64,000 nucleotides of DNA from a virus: IMG/VR virus record IMGVR_UViG_3300021365_000005, positions 33,457-97,456 of that record; one strand, given 5' to 3'. Made by a program: the position numbers and the translations under genes. Positions 2,486-57,184 of the stretch are shown here, in pieces. Below the pieces are notes generated by a model, which saw nothing but the letters and a program-made list of their open reading frames with translations, had not been told where the DNA came from and did not search any database. Position 1 is the first letter of the stretch. Each line of letters starts with the position of its first letter.

Positions 2486-4321
2486 CTATGCGTAGATATA
2501 CATATTACCACCTGAATGTCTGATGTTTCCTATCTGATCTGCCTTAGCGTTCGTTGCTTCTGCCTCTGATCCATTTATTACAGCAGCAAAGTGATAGTCG
2601 GCTGCAACATCTTGAGGAGTTTCAGAATTCCAAATGTCAATATCATTATTATAGTTGACCCCAAATCTACCATTACTTCCACTATAGTTGGTTTCCCATA
2701 CTAGCATATTACCTTGCGATGCCGCTTCTCCAAATTGAATTCCCACGTCTGTTGTAGTGGACCCAGATCCAATCAATATAAACTTATCTTTGATTTCTAG
2801 GTTTGTAGAAGCTATTGATGTTAGGGTTCCTTCTACAATTAGATCACCTGCAATTGTAATAGTGTCTGAGGCATCTCCAAAGGTGAGGTTTCCAAGGTTG
2901 GCATTTAATAAAGCCCCGGCTGCAGCAGCTGGTGTGGTTTGACCTGTTCCACCGTGGTCTATAGCAAGAGCTGCGCCTGACCAATTATCATCGTTTATTT
3001 GAACCGCACCACCAAGAGTAATTACCGGGGTATTGCCTCCACTGCTTTCAAGGGATAGACCTGAGACGTTTGAGTCTGCTGTGACAGCCGTTACCGTTCC
3101 CACTTCTGTTGTGAAGTCTAGAGAACTACTTATAAAGCTAGTTATATCAGCAAGGGTTGTGGACTTGATAGTAGCAGTGTCTGCGTCTTGGATTAGGAAT
3201 TTATTTGTTGAATTAAGTGAATTAGCAGCAACATTGTCAAGCGCAGATATAAAACTCGGTGCTAAGTGTTCAGATAGAATAGCCCCAACACCAATTTTAT
3301 CATTAGTAACTGCTCCGGGAGCTATTTGACTAGTTCCTACTCCATCATCTTTAATTCTAATACCTGCACTACCTAGCTGAAGAGTGTTTCCATTTAAGTC
3401 AACAGTAAATGTCCTATCGCCAGAACCATCATAGGAATTAGCGCTAATACCATGACCATCATGAAGAGTTCCCAATCCAGAAATACCCGATCCTGGGATT
3501 CCCGTTAAGTTGGATCCATCACCTGTGAATGTCGAAGCAGAAACTCCACCGCTTGCTGTTACACTTCCTGAAAAATAGTGGCTATCGCCTTCGTTATTTC
3601 CCCAAACTGTGGATCCTGTAATAACCCCAGCTGCAGCGTTCTCAAATGTGTATGCATTAAATGTAAGACTTCCGTCTACTGCAAGGGATCCTGTTATGGT
3701 TGCGTTTGAAGCGGAAATCCCCGTTGTTGCAGTAATCGTACCAGCTATTTCGGAATTCCCTGCAAGGAGTATATTCTCAGTGACGAGCACTGAAGCAGAC
3801 ACGACTGATGCAGAAACTATACCCGTTGTTGTGATATCACCAAATCCTGAGACTATTGATCCTCCAGATAAAGCCCCTACAGAAGTTACATGTGTTTGAG
3901 CTGCATCAAGATTAATTGTGGTTCCATCAATCGTAACTCCGGTGCCTCCTGTGTAGGTCGTATCCGAGTAGTTAGATTCATGAATATTAGAAGAAGTAGT
4001 TGCTGCCCAATTAACGTGTTGATCTTCAAAATAGCCTGAAAGCTGGGAGTGAGTTATTTCTGCTGGTACTACGGAGAATGTGTTGTTTGAACCTGCATCT
4101 TGAAGTCCATCTCCGGGTACGTATGTGGTATTAGTACCAGCAACCGAGCTTTGTGCAATAGATCTTAAGTTTCCACTACCATCAATTGTTACTACACGAT
4201 CACCAGTGCTTCCAGGAGTCCCTGCTGTTATTGCGGTTCCTAGATTTACCCCGACACTAGCTGTGACTGATGCTAGAGTTGCGTCGCTGCCGCTTAATAT
4301 AATTTTTTTCCAAATTGCCAT
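2486..4321 (-). CDS. Tail fibre/adhesin-like structural protein, paralogue of 403-2457
   Basis: A 611-residue Gly/Ser/Thr-rich protein beginning MAIWKKIILSGSDATL. The middle contains the ITASGxISAS type repeats (for example ITATTGISASNATITGS) found in many marine phage fibres, then GDGSNLTGIPG. The C-terminal roughly 110 residues match the C-terminus of the neighbour at 403-2457 in spacing and in key positions (VGIQFGE, GRFGV, NIRHSGGNMYIY). The pair probably arose by duplication. Only a weak GAG ribosome site precedes the ATG. Confidence 0.75.
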   Translation of the reverse strand: MAIWKKIILSGSDATLASVTASVGVNLGTAITAGTPGSTGDRVVTIDGSGNLRSIAQSSVAGTNTTYVPGDGLQDAGSNNTFSVVPAEITHSQLSGYFEDQHVNWAATTSSNIHESNYSDTTYTGGTGVTIDGTTINLDAAQTHVTSVGALSGGSIVSGFGDITTTGIVSASVVSASVLVTENILLAGNSEIAGTITATTGISASNATITGSLAVDGSLTFNAYTFENAAAGVITGSTVWGNNEGDSHYFSGSVTASGGVSASTFTGDGSNLTGIPGSGISGLGTLHDGHGISANSYDGSGDRTFTVDLNGNTLQLGSAGIRIKDDGVGTSQIAPGAVTNDKIGVGAILSEHLAPSFISALDNVAANSLNSTNKFLIQDADTATIKSTTLADITSFISSSLDFTTEVGTVTAVTADSNVSGLSLESSGGNTPVITLGGAVQINDDNWSGAALAIDHGGTGQTTPAAAAGALLNANLGNLTFGDASDTITIAGDLIVEGTLTSIASTNLEIKDKFILIGSGSTTTDVGIQFGEAASQGNMLVWETNYSGSNGRFGVNYNNDIDIWNSETPQDVAADYHFAAVINGSEAEATNAKADQIGNIRHSGGNMYIYA

Positions 4322-4342
4322 GTTGTTTACTCGTTATAGATT

Positions 4343-5524
4343 CTAATATGTTGTTGCGTTAAACCTAGGGGTTCTTTCAGCTATTGAGGTATCCATCGGG
4401 ATTGCGTAGCCTGAACTAGTTCCACTTGCCGAAGGAAATACATATATTCCTGGTAAAGCTGGAGTTGCTAGGGTAACGTCTCCGAAGATATGGGATCCTG
4501 AATTTGGTCCAAATCCCTTCCAAAATTCAAAAGGGGCTGTGGCCTGAGATCCTGATACGAAATATATGGTTCCTCCAGATCCAGTAGCTCCTGACATAGA
4601 TACATCTGATATTGCATACGTTCTAAGAAATGATTGTGACGCTACTACGGATCCTGTTGGAAAGTGAAGAATATTTGTTTTTGGAGCAAAGTCATATGCT
4701 TCATCCGGTCCATCACCTAAAGCCTTAAGAAATCCAGTGTGCGTGACAAAATCTTTATAGTAAGGTTGTGCAGTATAAGAACCAGATCCCCAGTTAGTTC
4801 CAATAACCGAGGCTGTTGTTGAACTTGATGATCCATAAGGAGTCCAAATAGATGAACTTGCATATGTTTCAGAGCTATATTCAGATCCTGTAAAACTATG
4901 GAAAGCTATGCTTCTTGATGGGAAAGATCCTGCAAAACTCATTGTTTCCATTGGAAGGGTAAACTCAACAATAGTTGTGTTTCCAGCAATACTACCACCT
5001 CCTGCTTTGAGTATGATGTTTGTTGCGTTTGTGGATGTGTTGTAAATTGAAAGTAAGTTTGTTTGACCATCTCCTATAAATGCTACAGGAACTTCCCAAC
5101 TAGCTGTTGCTGGAGCAGATGCCGTGGAAGATCCAGTATAAGAACTAGAATCTATTTGCACGATAAGAGCAGGAAAATTTACAGCATTAAATGATGTACT
5201 TATTTGACTTTTAGCTGCAGAAGATAATGAACTAGAATTAAGAAAATTCGTCATATCTACTTTAAATCTATCCCTTTCCATTGCAGTATATGATAGGCCA
5301 CTTCCAGTGTCGTAGATATAATATCCATCAGGATAGTCTGGGGCGGTTACAATAGAATCCCTATTGAAAAACCCAGTTGAGTTTTTAGATGCCTTAGCAC
5401 CTTGCTGAAGGGTTAGAGGTAGCCTGTGTTTTGGTCTAAACTCAAGAGCGTTTGTAGAGTCACCTACTGATGCAGATAACTGTGCCCATGTTTTCATTTC
5501 CCACTTATTTTTGTATAATGACAT
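4343..5524 (-). CDS. Virion structural protein, fibre cassette
   Basis: A 393-residue Ser/Thr/Gly/Tyr-rich protein. It begins MSLYKNKWEMKTWAQLSASVGDS and ends ISIAERTPRFNATTY-like (IAERTPRFN). Its composition and position inside the adhesin cassette suggest a tail-surface or fibre-attachment protein. I do not recognise a named family. A TATATAAATATC motif on the plus strand (GATATTTATATA on the coding strand) lies 17 bases before the start, followed by AAAGGA, so this gene may head its own late transcript. Confidence 0.65.
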   Translation of the reverse strand: MSLYKNKWEMKTWAQLSASVGDSTNALEFRPKHRLPLTLQQGAKASKNSTGFFNRDSIVTAPDYPDGYYIYDTGSGLSYTAMERDRFKVDMTNFLNSSSLSSAAKSQISTSFNAVNFPALIVQIDSSSYTGSSTASAPATASWEVPVAFIGDGQTNLLSIYNTSTNATNIILKAGGGSIAGNTTIVEFTLPMETMSFAGSFPSRSIAFHSFTGSEYSSETYASSSIWTPYGSSSSTTASVIGTNWGSGSYTAQPYYKDFVTHTGFLKALGDGPDEAYDFAPKTNILHFPTGSVVASQSFLRTYAISDVSMSGATGSGGTIYFVSGSQATAPFEFWKGFGPNSGSHIFGDVTLATPALPGIYVFPSASGTSSGYAIPMDTSIAERTPRFNATTY

Positions 5525-7384: not shown

Positions 7385-8893
7385 TTAAAGGATGTTTGAA
7401 ACTGTTAGCTTAGCGTAGAAGTCTTTACGAACTACTTTCTTAGCATAACGTGTCATTACACCTTTACGTGGAGTAAAGTTGTTTGGATCATAAACCAATG
7501 GAGTCATGATTAGTGGGATATATGGAGCGTAAACCGCACCTGTTTCAAGGAATTGATTTCCTCGGAATCCTATAATCATATCTGCAGAGTTCCAATATGG
7601 ATTCTTGTAAACCTTATAACGGTTTGCAAAGTTTCCAATTTTTTCTACACCTGCTGCAAATCCATCTGTATTTCCATCTGTATCTACTGCGAAACTAGGA
7701 ATAGTTTCAAGAACAGTAGCAACATCAGGAGAACAAACGATAAAGTTTGCACCACCACGCATTGTCGCTCTGTGGATCTTATTAGATAGCTTTTGGATTT
7801 CATATCCAATAGTAGCATTGTGTGTACCTAACGTGTAAGCCCAAGGACCTGAAGACGTTTGATATCCCTTAGCAGAAGCATTTGTTGGATCACCGACCCA
7901 AGTGCCGCTAAAGCCAGCAGAAGAGTGTAGCATTTCAAGGATCTCTAGATCGATTTCCATTGCAATGTACTCAGATAACATTGAAGTTAATTCTGCTTCA
8001 GCATCAATTGAGTGATACGCATTTAAATCTTGTGCAAACTCTGGAGTCCATACAACTTTTAACTTACGTGTCTTAGCAACTAAAGCCTCTGACTCTAGAG
8101 AAACCTCTAGTTCTGGAATATTTAGTTGAGCTTCCTCAAGTTCATTTCCAACAGTGTGCTGGGCCTCGAAATCACCACGAAGACCAGCTGCAGTAGATAC
8201 ATCACCATTCTGTTCAAGTTGGTGATAGTGTACTGTTACAACGTCAGTTGCACCAGGCATACCACTGAATGTTACCTCACCGGTTGCTTGATCAAAAGAA
8301 GTAGCAGCGTATTCAGTAGATCCTGATACAGCGTATGCTGAAAGACCCATGTCTAAATCTGCCTTTGTAAAGCCACCTGCATTAAGCTTGGTTCCCTTAG
8401 CAGCTAGAGTAACTGAAGCAGTTGATTGGGGAGCTCGCATAGAGTAAGCAGAACGACCAGGACCAGGATAAAGACCTTTTGTAAAGTCAGTTGTAGCTGC
8501 CTTTCCGTTTGATCCGAATATTGACTGTGTGTTGTCTACTGGGAATTTATCATTACCATATTTGAAATCCAACCAGAAAACTAGACCTGAAGGTAAGTTC
8601 ATTGGTTGTACCGATACGAAATCTTTTGCTGAGATTTCTGCAAAGATACGTCTTACTAGGGGAAGAGCTACGCCATTCCACTCATCATTAGCTGTTGCAG
8701 TGTTGTTTGCCTCAGAGATAAGTTGTTTAGCTTGGTTTTCCAAAAGAATAGCAGTGTTATGTTTATCATATTCACCACCAAGTCCTTCTAAAAGTCCAGT
8801 CTTTTCCCATTTAGTAACGTAGCCTTGTGTTTCATTGCGTTGTGTCGCAAATGCTGCCTTAGAATCTTGCAGCAAGTTTGAAATATTTGACAT
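7385..8893 (-). CDS. 23: Major capsid protein (T4 gp23 family)
   Basis: A 502-residue protein at the T4 gp23 position: after protease and scaffold genes, with the longest head-shell reading frame. It begins MSNISNLLQDSKAAF. A likely prohead-protease site, LISE then ANNT (cut after Glu61), sits where T4 gp23 is cut (after residue 65), so the mature chain would begin at Ala62. Conserved gp23 phrases include VRRIFAEISAKDFVSVQPM and the C-terminal GVMTRYAKKVVRKDFYAKL. It has an excellent ribosome site (TTTAGGAGACAATAATG) and a strong terminator, as expected for the most abundant virion protein. Confidence 0.95.
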   Translation of the reverse strand: MSNISNLLQDSKAAFATQRNETQGYVTKWEKTGLLEGLGGEYDKHNTAILLENQAKQLISEANNTATANDEWNGVALPLVRRIFAEISAKDFVSVQPMNLPSGLVFWLDFKYGNDKFPVDNTQSIFGSNGKAATTDFTKGLYPGPGRSAYSMRAPQSTASVTLAAKGTKLNAGGFTKADLDMGLSAYAVSGSTEYAATSFDQATGEVTFSGMPGATDVVTVHYHQLEQNGDVSTAAGLRGDFEAQHTVGNELEEAQLNIPELEVSLESEALVAKTRKLKVVWTPEFAQDLNAYHSIDAEAELTSMLSEYIAMEIDLEILEMLHSSAGFSGTWVGDPTNASAKGYQTSSGPWAYTLGTHNATIGYEIQKLSNKIHRATMRGGANFIVCSPDVATVLETIPSFAVDTDGNTDGFAAGVEKIGNFANRYKVYKNPYWNSADMIIGFRGNQFLETGAVYAPYIPLIMTPLVYDPNNFTPRKGVMTRYAKKVVRKDFYAKLTVSNIL

Positions 8894-33934: not shown

Positions 33935-36900
33935 TTAAAATGTGATTTTGCTAAAGTCATTAGTTACATTGATTTCAAATAGATTATCAGCCACATCTCG
34001 TAATGCATCTAAATGTGATATAACTAAAATGAACGAAAACTCAGATTTTAAATAGTCAAACAACATAAACATGCTATTAAGGTTCTCAGAGTCTAGAGTT
34101 CCAAATCCTTCGTCGATTGCTAGGAAGTTTGGTCTTGGTAGGTTTGAAACATTAATTAAGGCAACTCTAATCGCTAAGGACGATATAAACTTTTCCATTC
34201 CAGAAGTTAATTCTAGTGGCCATGAGCTTTTATCATATTTAATAAATGTTAAAATGTTTTTGCCATCTGTTTCAAACACAATTGTAAACTCTACAAGTTG
34301 TGCTAGGATCTCATTTACTTCGTCTTGAATTAAAGGAAGCACTTCTGAAATAAGCTCATAAGGTACACCATCTCTTTTTATTGCTTCAAGATAGTATTCG
34401 TATGCTTTTAGCTTATTTTCAACATCATTAGCATTATCAATAGATTCTTCTATTTGGGCTATTTTTGTTCTTGCAAGCTCACGTTGTGTGTGCTTTTGTT
34501 TTATTATTGATTGAAGATCCTCTAGATATGCTGTGGCTATTTCAAGATCACCTTCTATAGTAGAAATTTCATTAGCAATTATTTCATTATGCTTAAGATC
34601 TCTTTTGTTTGCATGATACTCAGAGATTTTATTAGCATTGATTGCCATAGTTGACTTTAGATTGTTAATTTTAGACTCTATATTGGTTCGGTCCACCTTA
34701 ATACCTAATTGACTAGTTTTTATATCCCCTAAACGAACTTTTAAGGTATCATAGCGAGATTTATTTTCAATATGTGGTAATAAGTCTTCTATCGTAGTTT
34801 GCAATTTTGCAATCTTTTTCGAATACTCATCAGCATTTATTTTATCAGAGGCCAAATCAACTTTTGCTTGCTGTGCTTGTTTAACAAATGGATTATTAAC
34901 ACAATATGGACAATCAGGATCGTAAGAATGGTTTTCAAGTTCGCATACCAAGTTCTTTTTTTGTTTGGCAGAAGCTAATAGGATTTTTAACTTGACGTCG
35001 GTGGTGTCTTTGTCGGATATAGCATCATAATACTCGGCGGCTTTAGAATTTACTAAATCAAGATCTATATGAGCAATTTCATTTGCAATTTCTAAATAGG
35101 TTTGTTTGTTGGCTTCTGTTTTAGGATCGAGATCGGACAGAAGGGTATGGCTATTTTCTATGGCCTTGACTAAGCTCCCAGACTCTTCTATAAGTTGGTC
35201 AATGTCTACAGGGGAAATTGTTTGACGAAGTTTTTTTGACTTGTTTAGAATTTTACCAGATAACTCTTCTATTGTTTTTTTGAATTTTTTTTCTGTAACA
35301 GAAGCCGTTGCATACTCTGTTGAAGCTTCCTGTAGATCTATTCCTGCATCGACTAACTGCTGATCATAATCCATTTTCTTAAATTCCCTTAGGGAAACTT
35401 GGACATCTCGAATTTCTTCTGTTGCAAGACTATAAATTTCTTCGAAAACTGTTATGTCCATAAACTGGGCTAACAGGTCTTTGCGTTCGGTCTGGGACTT
35501 GTTTATAAACCCTGTATTATTGTTTTGTACAGAAAGGGCTGTTAGCTCAAAGTCTTCATACTTGCCAACGTAACCTCTAATATTTTTATTGGTGTCTCTT
35601 CTTTGTTCACCATTTAACGATACCTCAGATCCATCTTCACCTATCATCCAAAAGTTAACGTCGACCTTGACGTTTGATTTTCCAGACTTTACTCTTTTTG
35701 CTTTTCGTTCGACAAAAAAGTCTACCCCATCTACTTCAAAGTTAAATTTACAGTAAAAGTTTAAAGACTTGTTGTTCATAACGTCTTCAGCCTTTTTAGT
35801 TCTGCTGCACTTATCGAACAAACAAAATGCTATTGAATCTAAAATTGCAGACTTGCCTGAGTGGTTTGCAGCAAATAAACCCATCAACCCAGACGCTTTG
35901 TCAAGGTCAATACTATTGTCAGGACCATAACTAAACATGTTTGAAAATTCAAACTTTTTAGCTTTCCAAAAAATATTTCTTGAGATTTCTACTGGAGCAA
36001 GATCCTTGTTTAGAGCACGATTAATATTTTTAACCCTATCGATTATAACAGGATCAGCAGAAAAATTTCTTTCTATATACTCTCCAATTAACTCATTTTG
36101 GTATTCAACATCCCTGACATTATTGACTAGGGCTTTTGAAGTTTTATTAGTGGCTGTACCGGCTACTTTATCTAGCTTAACAACCATTGCATCGGCAAAT
36201 GTTGCTTTTTTCCTAACAGAGCTTAGTAAAGTTTTTAGTTCTGCTTCGGTGGTGTTAGTGGTTCTAATTCTTAGTCTAGGAAACTTAGGAATTGTTTTAA
36301 TGTTAGGTAACACCCCATCAGTAATATCAATGGTATAGAAGCCATGATCGTTATGGATATGAGTAAAGCTGCTAGACAAGTCAGCAGTGTTCCAAGTAGT
36401 ATAGCCATGGTTCTCATAGGCTTCTCCGAAGTTTTGTTGGACTAACGATCCTGGATAATGTACCCTTTTGTCAATGTCCAAATATTGATGTTTGTGAATG
36501 TCTCCGAGTAGAACTAGATCATAGCCAGCAAACATACCAATGCCATGATTTAAATTTGTAACCTTAAACCCCCCGTCAGTCATAGACGAATCTACTGCAC
36601 CATGAAAAAATGCAACTTTAAGTTTATCATCAGGTATGTCTTTTGCTTGAATATAGTTTTCATGATTGTCAGCAATATCAAATACACTAAGATATAAGTC
36701 TGCTGCTTCATACACTTCAGTTTTATCTAGGTAGTGTAGATTTGGATGTTTTAGGCTATCATATATAGGTCTTAAAGCATCCATTCGACTTTTGTTGTTT
36801 AAGTTCATATCGTGGTTGCCACGAATAAAAACTGTGGGTCGCCGATCTGCAAGCTCTCTTAAAAATTCAGAAGTTAAGTCTATAAGTTCTGGGGACATGT

Positions 36901-37087
36901 CAATTTTATTATGCACAATGTCTCCGGCTATATATACAATAGATTTTTCTGGTAGTGCGTCTACAGCTTTATAAACCTCGGTAAATATTTTTCTATATTC
37001 ATCGTGGCGATTATAATTCCTAATATGTATGTCTGCAATATGAAATATTTGCTCTACAGAGCTTATACCAATATTAAGCTTTTGCAT
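33935..37087 (-). CDS. Fused SbcD-SbcC (gp47-gp46) recombination nuclease
   Basis: A single 1050-residue frame. Residues 1-340 are a complete Mre11/SbcD phosphoesterase: HIADIH (D19, H21), AGDIVH (55-56), RGNHD (90-93), FFHGAVD (H162), LLGDIHKH (195-200). Residues about 371-1050 are a Rad50/SbcC ATPase: Walker A FAANHSGKS (405-413), long coiled-coil arms, a CPYC zinc hook (726-729), the ELTSGMEKF signature and Walker B FLAIDEGFGTLD near 990. In T4 these are two genes (47, 46) whose products trim DNA ends for recombination-dependent replication. Here they are one chain with no stop or frameshift. It overlaps the primase gene by 14 bases. Confidence 0.95.
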   Translation of the reverse strand: MQKLNIGISSVEQIFHIADIHIRNYNRHDEYRKIFTEVYKAVDALPEKSIVYIAGDIVHNKIDMSPELIDLTSEFLRELADRRPTVFIRGNHDMNLNNKSRMDALRPIYDSLKHPNLHYLDKTEVYEAADLYLSVFDIADNHENYIQAKDIPDDKLKVAFFHGAVDSSMTDGGFKVTNLNHGIGMFAGYDLVLLGDIHKHQYLDIDKRVHYPGSLVQQNFGEAYENHGYTTWNTADLSSSFTHIHNDHGFYTIDITDGVLPNIKTIPKFPRLRIRTTNTTEAELKTLLSSVRKKATFADAMVVKLDKVAGTATNKTSKALVNNVRDVEYQNELIGEYIERNFSADPVIIDRVKNINRALNKDLAPVEISRNIFWKAKKFEFSNMFSYGPDNSIDLDKASGLMGLFAANHSGKSAILDSIAFCLFDKCSRTKKAEDVMNNKSLNFYCKFNFEVDGVDFFVERKAKRVKSGKSNVKVDVNFWMIGEDGSEVSLNGEQRRDTNKNIRGYVGKYEDFELTALSVQNNNTGFINKSQTERKDLLAQFMDITVFEEIYSLATEEIRDVQVSLREFKKMDYDQQLVDAGIDLQEASTEYATASVTEKKFKKTIEELSGKILNKSKKLRQTISPVDIDQLIEESGSLVKAIENSHTLLSDLDPKTEANKQTYLEIANEIAHIDLDLVNSKAAEYYDAISDKDTTDVKLKILLASAKQKKNLVCELENHSYDPDCPYCVNNPFVKQAQQAKVDLASDKINADEYSKKIAKLQTTIEDLLPHIENKSRYDTLKVRLGDIKTSQLGIKVDRTNIESKINNLKSTMAINANKISEYHANKRDLKHNEIIANEISTIEGDLEIATAYLEDLQSIIKQKHTQRELARTKIAQIEESIDNANDVENKLKAYEYYLEAIKRDGVPYELISEVLPLIQDEVNEILAQLVEFTIVFETDGKNILTFIKYDKSSWPLELTSGMEKFISSLAIRVALINVSNLPRPNFLAIDEGFGTLDSENLNSMFMLFDYLKSEFSFILVISHLDALRDVADNLFEINVTNDFSKITF

Positions 37088-51845: not shown

Positions 51846-52107
51846 ATTTATTCTCTAGCTTATCCATAACTTTTTTTAGATCCTTGAATATAGATCCAAT
51901 TTCATCGTCAGCTTCAAAGCCGCCTTTATGATCTATTCGCTTCATTTCAGAAAATGTTTTATGGAGATCGCCATAAAGTTCAACCATTGTGTTGTATAAA
52001 GATTCACAATCAGAAACAGCCGCGTCTAGTTTTCGAAGCAAATTCCAAATTATGAATGCAGAAATAATTGCTTCTACTAGAATAAATATTGATAGTAATA
52101 AAATCAT
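51826..52107 (-). CDS. Single-span membrane protein (93 aa)
   Basis: A 93-residue protein with one N-terminal transmembrane segment (residues 3-23) and a cytoplasmic or periplasmic helical tail with Glu/Lys heptad-like spacing (IFKDLKKVMDKLENKY). Similar membrane-anchored coiled proteins are found next to gp55-like genes in T4-like marine phages; function unknown. It overlaps the sigma gene by 20 bases and the HD gene by four. Confidence 0.7.
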   Translation of the reverse strand: MILLLSIFILVEAIISAFIIWNLLRKLDAAVSDCESLYNTMVELYGDLHKTFSEMKRIDHKGGFEADDEIGSIFKDLKKVMDKLENKYGTDKD

Positions 52108-52850
52108 TCGCCGAACAAGTCCTTAAATAGGTCATTTGCTTTTTCACTAGCTACAGAAACAGTTTTCTTTTTATTGCCACGAGGAAGATTACTAGGCTTG
52201 CTAGATCTAGATGCCTTTGCAGTGTCATGCTCTATTCTAGATGCCATGTGATCTGCGTGGTGAAGAAGTATTGGCAAATGGTTTTGTAATTCTTTTTGAG
52301 GATTGTATGTCTTAAAATAAGCCTCATTAGCTTGGTCATATAATCCATCATGGCATCTAATAGCTATTGCTTCATTAACCGTAAAAGGAATTCCAAAGTC
52401 TTGTAATAAAAATAAGCTTCTATCTGGTACAGTCATATGTCTTAACTTTGGATGATAGTCATATATTTTACCTTGGTTTTTTCTATGCCACTCCGAAGGG
52501 TTAGGAATGTAGTATGGAAATTCGCGATCGCCAATTTTACCAAGGTCGTGATTCAATGCAGAAAACATAAGTTCCTCTTCAGTAAAGTCAGAAGATATTG
52601 CTCCCATTAAGTTCCACGACTTGTGGAGTTCTTTAGCACATTTAATAACTCGAAGGACATGATCTACATAACCACCCTCAAAACAATTATGATAATGTTC
52701 TAATCCTGATGCAGGTGCTATAACCATTCTTTCTTCAAAAAAGGAATACATAGCAAGCAGGTTATCTTTTCGAGTTCCACTAAATTCAGTGGAAATTATT
52801 TCCTGAAGCTCTGCCCAATTGTCTAAAAGTTGTTTGTCTGTTAATTTCAT
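52104..52850 (-). CDS. HD-domain phosphohydrolase
   Basis: A 248-residue protein. The metal-binding HD signature is present: GGYVDHVLRV (first His), NHDLGKIG (His-Asp), HDG in CHDGLYD and ILLHHADHMA (late Asp). HD proteins hydrolyse phosphate esters of nucleotides or nucleic acids. The C-terminal tail is basic and ends NDLFKDLFGE, a short acidic-aromatic peptide that might bind a partner. Substrate unknown. It lies between the ClpP-like and sigma genes. Confidence 0.85.
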   Translation of the reverse strand: MKLTDKQLLDNWAELQEIISTEFSGTRKDNLLAMYSFFEERMVIAPASGLEHYHNCFEGGYVDHVLRVIKCAKELHKSWNLMGAISSDFTEEELMFSALNHDLGKIGDREFPYYIPNPSEWHRKNQGKIYDYHPKLRHMTVPDRSLFLLQDFGIPFTVNEAIAIRCHDGLYDQANEAYFKTYNPQKELQNHLPILLHHADHMASRIEHDTAKASRSSKPSNLPRGNKKKTVSVASEKANDLFKDLFGE

Positions 52851-53758: not shown

Positions 53759-54370
53759 TTAGTTTGCCATAAAGTCTTCAAAAACAAATTTCTTTGGAAA
53801 CTTACCCAATGCAATGCGTTGAAGTTTTTTTATTTCTTGCATTATAGGTTTTTGGTCTTTTTTAAACCTTGTTTTTGCTAGTTTTTTCTTTAGCTTGTGA
53901 AGTTGAACTGAAGCATGGCTTCTAGCTCGCTCCTTGTCTTTTTTGCGAATCCTTTTTTTAGGTTCGACCTTAGTTGGCTCTAGAGTCCCTTTTAAATCTG
54001 GTTGCTCTACACCTCGGAAGAATACACTACCATCTTTATCTACAAACTCAACCATAAAGTGCCATCCCTGAGGTCTTCCGGAAGATGTTCTTTGCGAAGA
54101 TATATCAGGAGGACCTACCTGTTCTTGTACACATGCGGAACATACTATGCTTGCAGCTGAAAGTCCTGCTACACAGTCTTGTCCACATTCTTTGCAAGCC
54201 ATGTATCTATATGTAAGTGCAGGGTTTTGATTCCACTTAGTTCCTAATGCATATCTTATTGGATATTCACATAAGGCATCAAAAGCTTTTTGGTCTTTTG
54301 GAGGAGCCTCTTTTTTGCGACTTCTAGATCCTTTAATCTTTGGGATTTTATTTGATTTCTTTTTCGCCAT
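53759..54370 (-). CDS. Zinc-ribbon basic protein
   Basis: A 203-residue protein. A basic N-terminus (KKKSNKIPKIKGSRSRKKEAPP) is followed by a zinc ribbon (CKECGQDC and VCSACVQ, residues about 59-85) and a C-terminal Lys/Arg helix (HKLKKKLAKTRFKKDQKP). The zinc ribbon and charge suggest nucleic-acid binding, but no specific role is known. It overlaps the membrane protein gene 54348-55319 by 23 bases. Confidence 0.72.
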   Translation of the reverse strand: MAKKKSNKIPKIKGSRSRKKEAPPKDQKAFDALCEYPIRYALGTKWNQNPALTYRYMACKECGQDCVAGLSAASIVCSACVQEQVGPPDISSQRTSSGRPQGWHFMVEFVDKDGSVFFRGVEQPDLKGTLEPTKVEPKKRIRKKDKERARSHASVQLHKLKKKLAKTRFKKDQKPIMQEIKKLQRIALGKFPKKFVFEDFMAN

Positions 54371-55319
54371 ATAAGTTTTTCTTTATTTCTTTAATTTTTT
54401 TCTGTTTATCAGCCATACTAATGTTTCCTCCTTTTGCTATAAGATCTAGAGTTAGTTCTATTACTTTATTTTGTCTACTATCTATTTTGTTTACAACAGG
54501 CTTTTTTACTACAGGATCTTTTACGACTTTAGGAGCTTTTAAAATTTTAGTCTTTTCAAGTATTGGGGTTTTACCGAAAGCTATATTAGCAACTACAACT
54601 AAAGCTATAGCTAAAGGATCAAATACGAATATAATTAATAGCATAAACCAATTAATAATTGAATCCATAGGTTTATTAATAAGAGTTGATACGTATTTTA
54701 ATGGGCCAAGTTCTCGAGTTGTCTCGTCATTAATTTTCAGATCTAAAATTTGAATGTCAATAGCTGATATCGAATCTGATGCTACTGCATATGCCACCCT
54801 AGCTTCTTCCAATTGACTTTGTAAAGCTTTTCGCTGTCTAGATGACGTGGTAGTTACCAAAAGCCCTGACTCTCTATCTACATATTGTATTGCTGTAGGA
54901 TTAGCCAAAGCCTCTGACCAAGTTATGATGTTCGTATTTAGAACTTCGGAGTCTCTAACGAACCTGTTTTGCTTTGATTCCAAAATGGCAATTTCATTTG
55001 AAGTAATGGCTTCTTTAGCAGACGTTTCTTGATAAGCTCCAGATAGGAATCCATATATACCAGCTGAAGTTATGGCAATTAGAACTACCATAGCAACAGA
55101 AAGGTATGTTCTTAAAAATACATTAACCCTGTCCCAGTATTGATATAAAGCTGATGCAGTTACTAACTTGGCAAACTCTAATGAAGAGGCCATTATAATA
55201 ACTGCGGTAGATGCTCCTGCAAATAGATTACTTAATCCATATACCGAATAGAATGCAGCGGATGCCGAAACAAATAGTGCCGACATTGCTACAACATAAG
55301 GAAACAAATTAAATTTCAT
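54348..55319 (-). CDS. Multi-span membrane protein with coiled periplasmic or cytoplasmic region
   Basis: A 323-residue protein with four predicted transmembrane segments (about 8-28, 32-52, 75-95 and 215-245). Between the third and fourth lies a 110-residue charged helical region, and the C-terminal tail is Lys/Pro-rich (KAPKVVKDPVVKKPVVNK). Related proteins of this layout are found in T4-like marine phages and are unassigned. The start codon directly abuts TTATTTATA, so the nearest late-type motif is too close to serve it. Confidence 0.72.
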   Translation of the reverse strand: MKFNLFPYVVAMSALFVSASAAFYSVYGLSNLFAGASTAVIIMASSLEFAKLVTASALYQYWDRVNVFLRTYLSVAMVVLIAITSAGIYGFLSGAYQETSAKEAITSNEIAILESKQNRFVRDSEVLNTNIITWSEALANPTAIQYVDRESGLLVTTTSSRQRKALQSQLEEARVAYAVASDSISAIDIQILDLKINDETTRELGPLKYVSTLINKPMDSIINWFMLLIIFVFDPLAIALVVVANIAFGKTPILEKTKILKAPKVVKDPVVKKPVVNKIDSRQNKVIELTLDLIAKGGNISMADKQKKIKEIKKNLYGEKEIK

Positions 55320-55337: not shown

Positions 55338-56006
55338 TTAGGCTTTAGAGTTTAACTTGAAAATGTATGTATGAAAAACAGTTTCGCCTATAGTCTTAAC
55401 CCTGTGTTCACATGGAAGTTTACCTTTATTAACAAAGACCTTTTTTATTATATCTAATGCTTTAAGGTCGTGAGAGGTTATGGCTAATGACCCGCTAATA
55501 ATTGAAACGGTTAACGAGTCCAGCTTATATATACTGGCGGGTAGTTGTTCAGGACCTTTATTACTGGTTGGTATTAATGGAAGCGCTGACGTTAATCTAT
55601 CAATATAGAAATCTAACTCTAAAGGGGCTAAAGTTGAAAACCAATTTTCAAAGATCCGCTTATCATTTCCGAAAATAACTGATTTGTCTTCTGGTTGTAA
55701 AAGATCCCAAGCTTCTCCTGGGTCATATTCAGTATTTCTCTGAGACCACTCTATATACCCATCCATTTCCTCTTTAGTCATAGTAGCAGCAGTAGATATC
55801 CAGTCAACAACAACGTCATCATTTTGGCTATTAGTATTTGTCTGAGATAACTCATATACCAACTCATTAAGGAGAGAATTATAAAATGACTTACCTGATT
55901 TCTCTACAAAGATCTGCTTAAAGTCTTCTTGGCAAAACTTCCACATGGCTTTATTGTCTTGTACGTCTTTAAATTTCCAAATCATTGCTTCGTCAAAATC
56001 ATTCAT
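55338..56006 (-). CDS. Hypothetical protein immediately downstream of the tmRNA
   Basis: A 222-residue acidic protein (MNDFDEAMIWKFKDVQDNKAMWKFC). No motif is recognised; helical and beta regions alternate, and LPCEHRVKTIGETVFHTYIFKL forms a terminal beta hairpin. It has a good ribosome site (TTTGGAGAATTATAATG). The 5' side is occupied by the tmRNA gene, so the mRNA may derive from the same transcript. Confidence 0.65.
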   Translation of the reverse strand: MNDFDEAMIWKFKDVQDNKAMWKFCQEDFKQIFVEKSGKSFYNSLLNELVYELSQTNTNSQNDDVVVDWISTAATMTKEEMDGYIEWSQRNTEYDPGEAWDLLQPEDKSVIFGNDKRIFENWFSTLAPLELDFYIDRLTSALPLIPTSNKGPEQLPASIYKLDSLTVSIISGSLAITSHDLKALDIIKKVFVNKGKLPCEHRVKTIGETVFHTYIFKLNSKA

Positions 56007-56024
56007 TATAATTCTCCAAATATG

Positions 56025-56330
56025 TTCCGCCTTCCTCCGGGCTTTAATGATACGACTAGAATAGATCTAATCTTGCCCTGTTAATACCAGCAGCTCCGGG
56101 TACCTTATTAGGCAGCCATTGCTAGTTCAACTTGTTCGCCAGTTAATTGCGTTGTGATCTTCTGAATGCTCTTATCATATGGTCAAATCCAAAATCACCC
56201 CCATATTATATCTATTTGAATATAATTCATTAGATATTGATCATATTATATCTAATTGAATATAATTCTTTGTGGAGGTGGGGGGAGTCGAACCCCCGTC
56301 CCGATATGTAGCTGACACTCATACTTCGAT
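56025..56330 (-). ncRNA. ssrA: Permuted two-piece tmRNA (ssrA)
   Basis: In transcription order: first the acceptor piece, ending GGACGGGGG, loop TTCGACT, CCCCC, then CACCTCC and discriminator A at 56273; then a 70-base intervening segment; then the coding piece starting GGGGGTG at 56202 followed by ATTTTGGATTTGAC. GGGGGTG pairs with CACCTCC in all seven positions with a G-U at the third pair, the alanine identity element. The tag frame begins GGC at 56140 (preceded by TTAACT): Gly-Glu-Gln-Val-Glu-Leu-Ala-Met-Ala-Ala, then two TAA stops at 56105-56110. CCATATG in the coding piece pairs with CATATCGG in the acceptor piece (one bulge), and CATTC with GAGTG, matching helix P2. CCA is not encoded. 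The outer ends are estimates. Confidence 0.86.
56202..56268 (-). repeat. Direct repeat in the tmRNA intervening segment
   Basis: Two copies of a 27-base AT-rich unit (56202-56228 and 56242-56268) differ at one position. Between and within them TTAGATAT and ATATCTAA form an eight-pair hairpin. The segment lies between the acceptor and coding pieces of the tmRNA and would be removed on processing. Confidence 0.75.
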
Positions 56331-56334
56331 CATC

Positions 56335-56344
56335 TATAAATATA
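56335..56344 (-). promoter_or_regulatory. TATATTTATA promoter-like motif for the tmRNA
   Basis: The coding strand reads CTTATATTTATAGATGATCG, directly before the acceptor piece. As there is no protein start here, a translation-related role of the motif is excluded at this site, which supports a promoter role in the minus orientation. Confidence 0.55.
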
Positions 56345-56348
56345 AGGT

Positions 56349-56702
56349 CTAGCTCATTAATGCTGAGAGTTTCTTATGTTTATTATATAGTTTATTCACG
56401 ATCTTGAGATCGGTGTTATCCTTCAGCTTTGTAGATCGATATTTCATTAGAATATCAAATACTTGTTTAGCATCAGATTTAATATCAGCAGAGTCAAAGT
56501 TTCTTAAGCCAGTCGACCTTTTAATATTATCATGGATCAGAGCTAGTACTATATCTAATTTTTTAATAGTAGAATCTGAATCATTCTCATCCTCTAGAGA
56601 ATTCATAAAGGTGTTTAGGGTTCCAGTTAAATTTGAGTTACCCCTTTTCCTCCACTCCTTTTTTTCTAGAGGCTTTTGTTTTTGCTTTTTTGGCATTAAC
56701 AT
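56349..56702 (-). CDS. Small basic hypothetical protein
   Basis: A 117-residue protein with two nearby ATGs at 56702 and 56696; AGGAT lies before both. A Lys/Arg-rich N-terminus (MPKKQKQKPLEKKEWRKRG) precedes a helical region (TIKKLDIVLALIHDNIKR). It overlaps the end of the membrane protein gene 56638-56856 by 65 bases in another frame, which is unusual; this long overlap weakens confidence. It ends just before the tmRNA promoter motif. Confidence 0.55.
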   Translation of the reverse strand: MLMPKKQKQKPLEKKEWRKRGNSNLTGTLNTFMNSLEDENDSDSTIKKLDIVLALIHDNIKRSTGLRNFDSADIKSDAKQVFDILMKYRSTKLKDNTDLKIVNKLYNKHKKLSALMS

Positions 56703-56856
56703 TATCCTGGGTTTTTGTATACTCTTTGAGGATGTCGATTATGACATGTTTATCTAGCACGGTAGTTGTCATCTGAGACAACTTACTTCGAAAATAAAAA
56801 TAGCTCCAAAGTCCACCTATCGTAGCTCCGCTTATAAATACCATTATACTATTCAT
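56638..56856 (-). CDS. Small membrane protein (72 aa)
   Basis: A 72-residue protein with one N-terminal transmembrane segment (MVFISGATIGGLWSYFYF) and a Lys-rich C-terminus (KKAKTKASRKKGVEEKG). It overlaps 56849-57184 by eight bases. It may be a phage membrane-anchored factor, but no function is recognised. Confidence 0.6.
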   Translation of the reverse strand: MNSIMVFISGATIGGLWSYFYFRSKLSQMTTTVLDKHVIIDILKEYTKTQDNVNAKKAKTKASRKKGVEEKG

Positions 56857-57184
56857 AAGTTTTACTCCATTGACTTACAGGTGTTCCAGTACCAGCATCT
56901 AACATACCCATACGTCGAGCAGTGTTATATTGGTATTGGGCATCTTTAAGTGTGTCCATGATACGTGACGCTTCAGAAGCTGTAATTTCAAACTCCCGAC
57001 CTCCAATACATAACGAACCAATCAATGGTTGTTCAGCAGGAGGTGTAGGTCTTTGAGCTTTCATTCCTTTAGCCAGTTTAAAGTTTATACCATTCCATAG
57101 TTTTCCATATTTGTCAGGATTAAACTTTGGTTTGGATCGTTCCCTATTGGAACCTTGTTTGTAAGAATTATTATTCTTTACCAT
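56849..57184 (-). CDS. Hypothetical protein (111 aa)
   Basis: A 111-residue protein: a basic Asn/Lys-rich N-terminus (MVKNNNSYKQGSNRERSKPKF) followed by a small folded part (IGSLCIGGREFEITASEASRIMDTLKDAQYQYNTARRMGM). No family recognised. The 157-base gap upstream (57185-57341) is AT-rich with no further gene; it probably holds a promoter, though I cannot define it. Confidence 0.62.
   Translation of the reverse strand: MVKNNNSYKQGSNRERSKPKFNPDKYGKLWNGINFKLAKGMKAQRPTPPAEQPLIGSLCIGGREFEITASEASRIMDTLKDAQYQYNTARRMGMLDAGTGTPVSQWSKTYE

Follow-up and report, generated by a model that had tools for sequence, protein, structure and literature searches.

The minus strand of the window (the whole stretch of 64,000 nucleotides that was analysed, which lies in a virus record of 97,456 bases) carries a permuted tmRNA gene at positions 56037–56332. 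tmRNA releases ribosomes that have become stuck and tags the incomplete proteins on them for destruction; it acts at stalled ribosomes and does not choose among proteins. That the locus encodes a permuted (two-piece) tmRNA carried by the phage and bearing a tag of its own was supported at the sequence level, because two programs recognized it, its helices co-varied and its tag was conserved in relatives. The locus is most probably a working gene of the phage that encodes a circularly permuted tmRNA, which would perform both rescue and tagging.

ARAGORN, named as a check in the original prediction, called a permuted tmRNA at 56017–56363 (minus strand) with the tag GEQVELAMAA, the sole RNA gene that it reported in the window. 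The sole Rfam match in the window was to the RF04321 tmRNA_permuted model at 56320–56108, with 59.5 bits (gathering score 47) and an E-value of 5.2e-9 computed over 64 kb and 4227 families. The threshold was passed over the whole model length, which supplied the covariance-model match that the prediction called for. The lineage-specific Rfam models named alongside ARAGORN gave no such match. The window gene scored 21.5 bits with alpha_tmRNA (RF01849, cut-off 50), 25.7 bits with cyano_tmRNA (RF01851, cut-off 70) and, as the best of the three, 40.5 bits with beta_tmRNA (RF01850, cut-off 84). Scores below all three cut-offs leave the permuted tmRNA without an assigned lineage.

Along the minus strand, the acceptor piece is followed by the intervening segment and then by the coding piece. 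The acceptor piece begins with the 5' strands of three P2 helices, P2c (TGATC, 56328–56332), P2b (TGAGTG, 56316–56321) and P2a (CATATCG, 56302–56308). It continues with GGAC and the T-arm (GGGGG TTCGACT CCCCC) at 56281–56301, covered by the Rfam match, with the T-arm itself at 56281–56297, and ends with the acceptor stem 3' strand CACCTCC and discriminator A (56273–56280). CCA is not encoded, as CAA follows the discriminator. The intervening segment of 70 nt (56203–56272), in which an AT-rich inverted repeat occurs twice, is presumably cut out of the precursor; no further exact copy of the repeat, considered as a dispersed element, was found within the window. The coding piece opens with the acceptor stem 5' strand GGGGGTG (56196–56202), complementary to CACCTCC and contributing to the G3-U70 pair, and with the D-loop region ATTTTGGATTTGAC (56182–56195), also covered by the Rfam match. 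The 3' strands of P2a (CATATG, 56176–56181), P2b (CATTCA, 56163–56168) and P2c (GATCA, 56155–56159) come next. The tag frame GEQVELAMAA (56105–56140) has the resume codon GGC, is preceded by TTAACT and is closed by TAA and a second TAA. A pseudoknot 3' of the tag (56037–56089) is formed by S1 (TGGTAT/GTATCA) and S2 (GGGC/GCCC), and its loop holds an additional hairpin, GATTAGA..TCTAGTC.

The original prediction had placed a T-arm and CACCTCC with discriminator A 70 bases ahead of the tmRNA 5' end, and all of these elements were found where it had put them on the minus strand. The acceptor strands paired at seven of seven positions with G-U at pair three, as had been claimed, and the P2-type pairing described between the pieces was resolved into the three helices located between 56155 and 56332. 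The frame ending in AMAA and two stops after TTAACT was present in the window; the second stop codon was not conserved among relatives. The piece order, the G3-U70 pair together with the T-arm, the joining of the pieces by P2 and a tag with a hydrophobic, degradation-signal end are those of a permuted tmRNA.

A tag-frame pattern search of virus contigs revealed the tag family GE[QH]VE[LM]AMAA in 66 IMG/VR contigs, in which the conservation of the tag is partly built in since the pattern fixed most tag codons. ARAGORN called nearly all of the 66 stretches permuted tmRNAs, with the reported tag sometimes starting at E, and the gene was complete in 63 copies. A tag-independent scan using the T-arm and acceptor alone led again to this tag family, in L004, L015 and L020. 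The tag pattern had no match in 84,980 bacterial and archaeal genomes. Within the limits of the pattern, the tag residue changed at codons 3 (Q/H) and 6 (L/M), and silent changes were seen at codons 6, 7, 9 and 10. The expected conservation of the tag frame in relatives was found, as were compensatory changes across 44 distinct genes of the family.

Covariation was evaluated in these 44 genes against a control in which 3' strands were swapped between sequences, and the tested helices lay outside the search pattern that had collected most of the sequences. All six pairs of P2a were formed in 38 of the 44 own sequences vs 13% with swapped partners, and five of five P2c pairs in 40 of 44 vs 46%, a control that handles base composition and, only incompletely, kinship. 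P2c occurred as TGATC/GATCA, TGACC/GGTCA, TGAAC/GTTCA and TGAGT/ACTCA. P2b was a weak test, with a mean of 6.3 pairs vs 5.6 for swapped partners. The acceptor stem was found as GGGGGTG/CACCTCC, GGGGATG/CATCTCC and GGGGCTG/CAGCTCC with G3-U70 invariant in all 44 genes, and the T-stem was found in seven different complementary versions. Pseudoknot stem S2 appeared in the family as GGGC/GCCC, GAAGC/GCTTC, GAGGT/ACCTC, GAGAC/GTCTC, AGGAT/ATCCT and GGGT/ACCC. The support for the pseudoknot is comparative only, as a free search on single sequences gave results barely above shuffled ones and not significant.

The intervening segment varied strongly in length. It was about 18–22 nt long in 47 of the 63 copies, and in 15, one of which is the window gene, it had AT-rich hairpins and measured 68–70 nt. 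In L051 the short form was present although its next gene is 89% identical to that of the window, which indicates that the segment is easily gained or lost. In L057 the segment reached 90 nt and contained a complete tRNA-Ala(UGC). A dedicated scan for nested tRNAs returned mostly tRNA clusters, and a complete tRNA-Ala(UGC) inside the intervening segment was detected only in L057 (3674–3748, minus strand), L267 (4786–4860, minus strand) and L269 (4462–4536, plus strand). A paper on a tmRNA database describes one nested tRNA-Ala, termed unique, in a nominally archaeal and possibly misbinned MAG, GCA-2688965 sp002688965.2 (PMC11915505). By its described architecture this case resembles L057, L267 and L269, with a tRNA in the intervening sequence where the window has two hairpin repeats instead. 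Because three virus contigs show the same architecture, the archaeal-MAG case may be of phage origin, possibly from a misbinned phage contig, which would offer a simple origin for this puzzling permuted tmRNA.

L267, L269 and L271 encode a 37-residue tag, such as GTQIKSVKAGIFASLAAIRLLATETVATEESVYAMAA, almost four times as long as that of the window. L271 is without a nested tRNA, and its tag core was marked at 8512–8546. The 37-residue tags share a conserved VKAGIFA[ST]LAAIR[LF]L ahead of an AMA[AV] end, and the genes are followed by a terminator-like hairpin and a T run. In each pair dN was lower than dS, which for a frame of this short length points only weakly to selection. The relatives with a nested tRNA or a 37-residue tag raise fresh questions on processing and on the role of the tag.

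Other viral tmRNAs were also noticed. In L259, L260, L261 and L265 the tags of permuted tmRNAs were 29 residues long, ANDNALNNVTFVNFGKQKSVVNEDFALAA for example, and most of these contigs have tRNA-Ala and tRNA-Asp genes close by. The 102-kb virus contig L018 carries a betaproteobacterium-like permuted tmRNA at 4141–4502 (plus strand; beta_tmRNA, 166 bits), which reached 146.8 bits with RF04321, against which the window gene was low at 59.5. The tag ANDAQFALAA was found in more than 10 further virus contigs, and L012, L022 and L038 share another viral tag family, GNN[FY]EM[KR]AAA; in L038 the end of a tRNA-Ala gene directly precedes the tmRNA.

The tmRNA occupies a 342-base gap between two ORFs, all on the minus strand. 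The upstream gene (56349–56702, minus strand, 117 aa, no function assigned) has its stop just ahead of the tmRNA, and the downstream gene (55338–56006, minus strand, 222 aa, no function assigned) has GGAG before its start. No promoter stood out over shuffled sequence. The contig encodes a T4-type major head protein, head maturation protease, portal, terminase and baseplate wedge (PHROG, E-values of 1e-22 to 1e-70), and thousands of T4-like phages have proteins matching its capsid and portal, which places it among them. The nearest isolated phages by capsid and portal were Flavobacterium phage immuto and Microcystis phage Mel-JY01 (47–52% identity), and the permuted tmRNA model had no match in either. 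No near DNA match was found among isolated phages; the distant search returned just a conserved T-loop stretch. The tmRNA was the only tRNA-like gene detected in the record, in which no tRNA genes were found. Elsewhere in the window, a 1050-aa ORF (33935–37087, minus strand) matched SbcD-like (residues 14–348) and SbcC-like (302–1048) families and apparently, from these matches, fuses the equivalents of T4 gp47 and gp46.

Homologues of 54348–55319 and 56849–57184 flank the tmRNA in G006, G007 and G009. In G011 the tmRNA lies next to a homologue of 52104–52850. The tmRNA lies beside the same genes in relatives having capsid, portal, terminase or baseplate genes in common. This shared position in diverged relatives argues for an old phage gene that was probably inherited vertically within the phage group for a long time.

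From established tmRNA biology, we infer processing into two RNAs, charging with alanine and ribosome rescue. One precursor would be transcribed, perhaps together with neighbouring genes. RNase P would cut at G56202, trimming after A56273 would fall to tRNase Z or exonucleases, and the intervening segment would thereby be removed. A host enzyme would add CCA, and the two RNAs would be held together by P1 and P2, the acceptor piece being charged by the host alanyl-tRNA synthetase. SmpB was not found in G000 nor in eight other phage or virus records, and the phage tmRNA presumably uses that of the host. With host SmpB it would enter ribosomes stalled on broken mRNA and add Ala and then GEQVELAMAA. 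The stop codon would release the ribosome, with the product marked for host proteases. The likely benefit would be that ribosomes are kept available while mRNA is degraded during takeover.

A phage tmRNA could instead act as a decoy that blocks host trans-translation by tying up SmpB of the host, alanyl-tRNA synthetase or stalled ribosomes. There is a precedent in phage DS6A, as a molecule like its TLD-only tmRNA has been shown to inhibit tmRNA (PMC4131195, PMC11915505). We consider this improbable for the window gene, since a decoy does not need a tag and the relatives nevertheless keep an open frame ending in AMAA with silent changes. Somewhat less probable still is that the tag itself is the main use, for host protein degradation or recognition by another partner, over ribosome release; the tag is specific to the family and a tag of 37 residues is conserved in relatives, but tmRNA acts on stalled ribosomes regardless of the protein, and selectivity was without sign here. 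Tagging of host proteins has been proposed (PMC9004378). A functionless passenger or a decaying copy from a bacterial host, as could arise from ssrA fragments captured by phages at integration (discussed in PMC9004378), is highly improbable given 63 complete copies, co-varying helices, the same place in diverged phages and a tag pattern in none of the bacterial genomes searched.

Two-piece tmRNA in marine T4-like phages is already known, and the novelty suggested for far-T4 phages in the original prediction did not stand. The T4-like methylophage Melnitz was reported in 2022 to carry a two-piece tmRNA, with 53 two-piece structures counted among the phage genomes then available (PMC9004378), and an SsrA is annotated in the Pelagibacter phage Mosig (MT647606.1). 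Melnitz has in common with the window a T4-like phage, a permuted two-piece tmRNA and the absence of integration signs. Its ssrA groups with alphaproteobacterial/SAR11 tmRNA, whereas the window gene is under the alpha cut-off; it has a predicted glutamine riboswitch in the 3' domain and lies upstream of a transcription coactivator gene (PMC9004378), whereas the window had no Rfam riboswitch match and its tmRNA neighbours no match to such a gene. Mosig, also T4-like, shares a permuted tmRNA, a tag starting with GE and an inverted repeat in the intervening segment. Its tag is GEDNFALAA and not GEQVELAMAA, its genomic neighbours differ, and at 67.6 bits it is over the alpha_tmRNA cut-off, in contrast to 21.5 for the window gene. 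What appears to be new is the viral lineage, in which no lineage cut-off was passed, the tag is absent from the 84,980 genomes and relatives with a nested tRNA-Ala or a 37-residue tag occur.

The host evidence for the window phage conflicts. Tags of the form GE..YAMAA occur mostly in Bacteroidota and share the GE start and AMAA end with the window tag, but they are nine residues long and encoded in one-piece genes, whereas the window gene is permuted with a 10-residue tag. The GE-starting tag of Mosig, a Pelagibacter phage, counts against a Bacteroidota-only reading. Low-GC relatives with the same tmRNA (GC about 0.27–0.29) include L055, L056, L063, L083, L095, L103, L105, L113 and others. In low-GC relatives a Shine-Dalgarno motif preceded 2 of 159 ORFs, and the near-absence of the motif suggests Bacteroidota hosts for this subgroup; in Flavobacterium phage immuto it preceded 1 of 25 ORFs (4%). 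A Bacteroidota host for the window phage itself was unsupported, as the motif reached 37–40% vs 4% in immuto (37–51% across the window phage, G007 and G009 together). A Bacteroidota-type promoter, TANNTTTG, was uninformative as host evidence.

It is possible, though we hold it tentatively and think it rather doubtful as a whole, that these genes form a fourth, virus-borne two-piece tmRNA lineage, inherited with the T4-like group and working at least partly in Bacteroidota that have a one-piece tmRNA, whose GE..AMAA tags it would imitate with a molecule of different build; as a complete tRNA-Ala gene can sit in the intervening segment, a precursor could then yield two tmRNA pieces and a tRNA. 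The viral tmRNA family is large and coherent, and through it the reasons for ribosome rescue in lytic phages can be tested.
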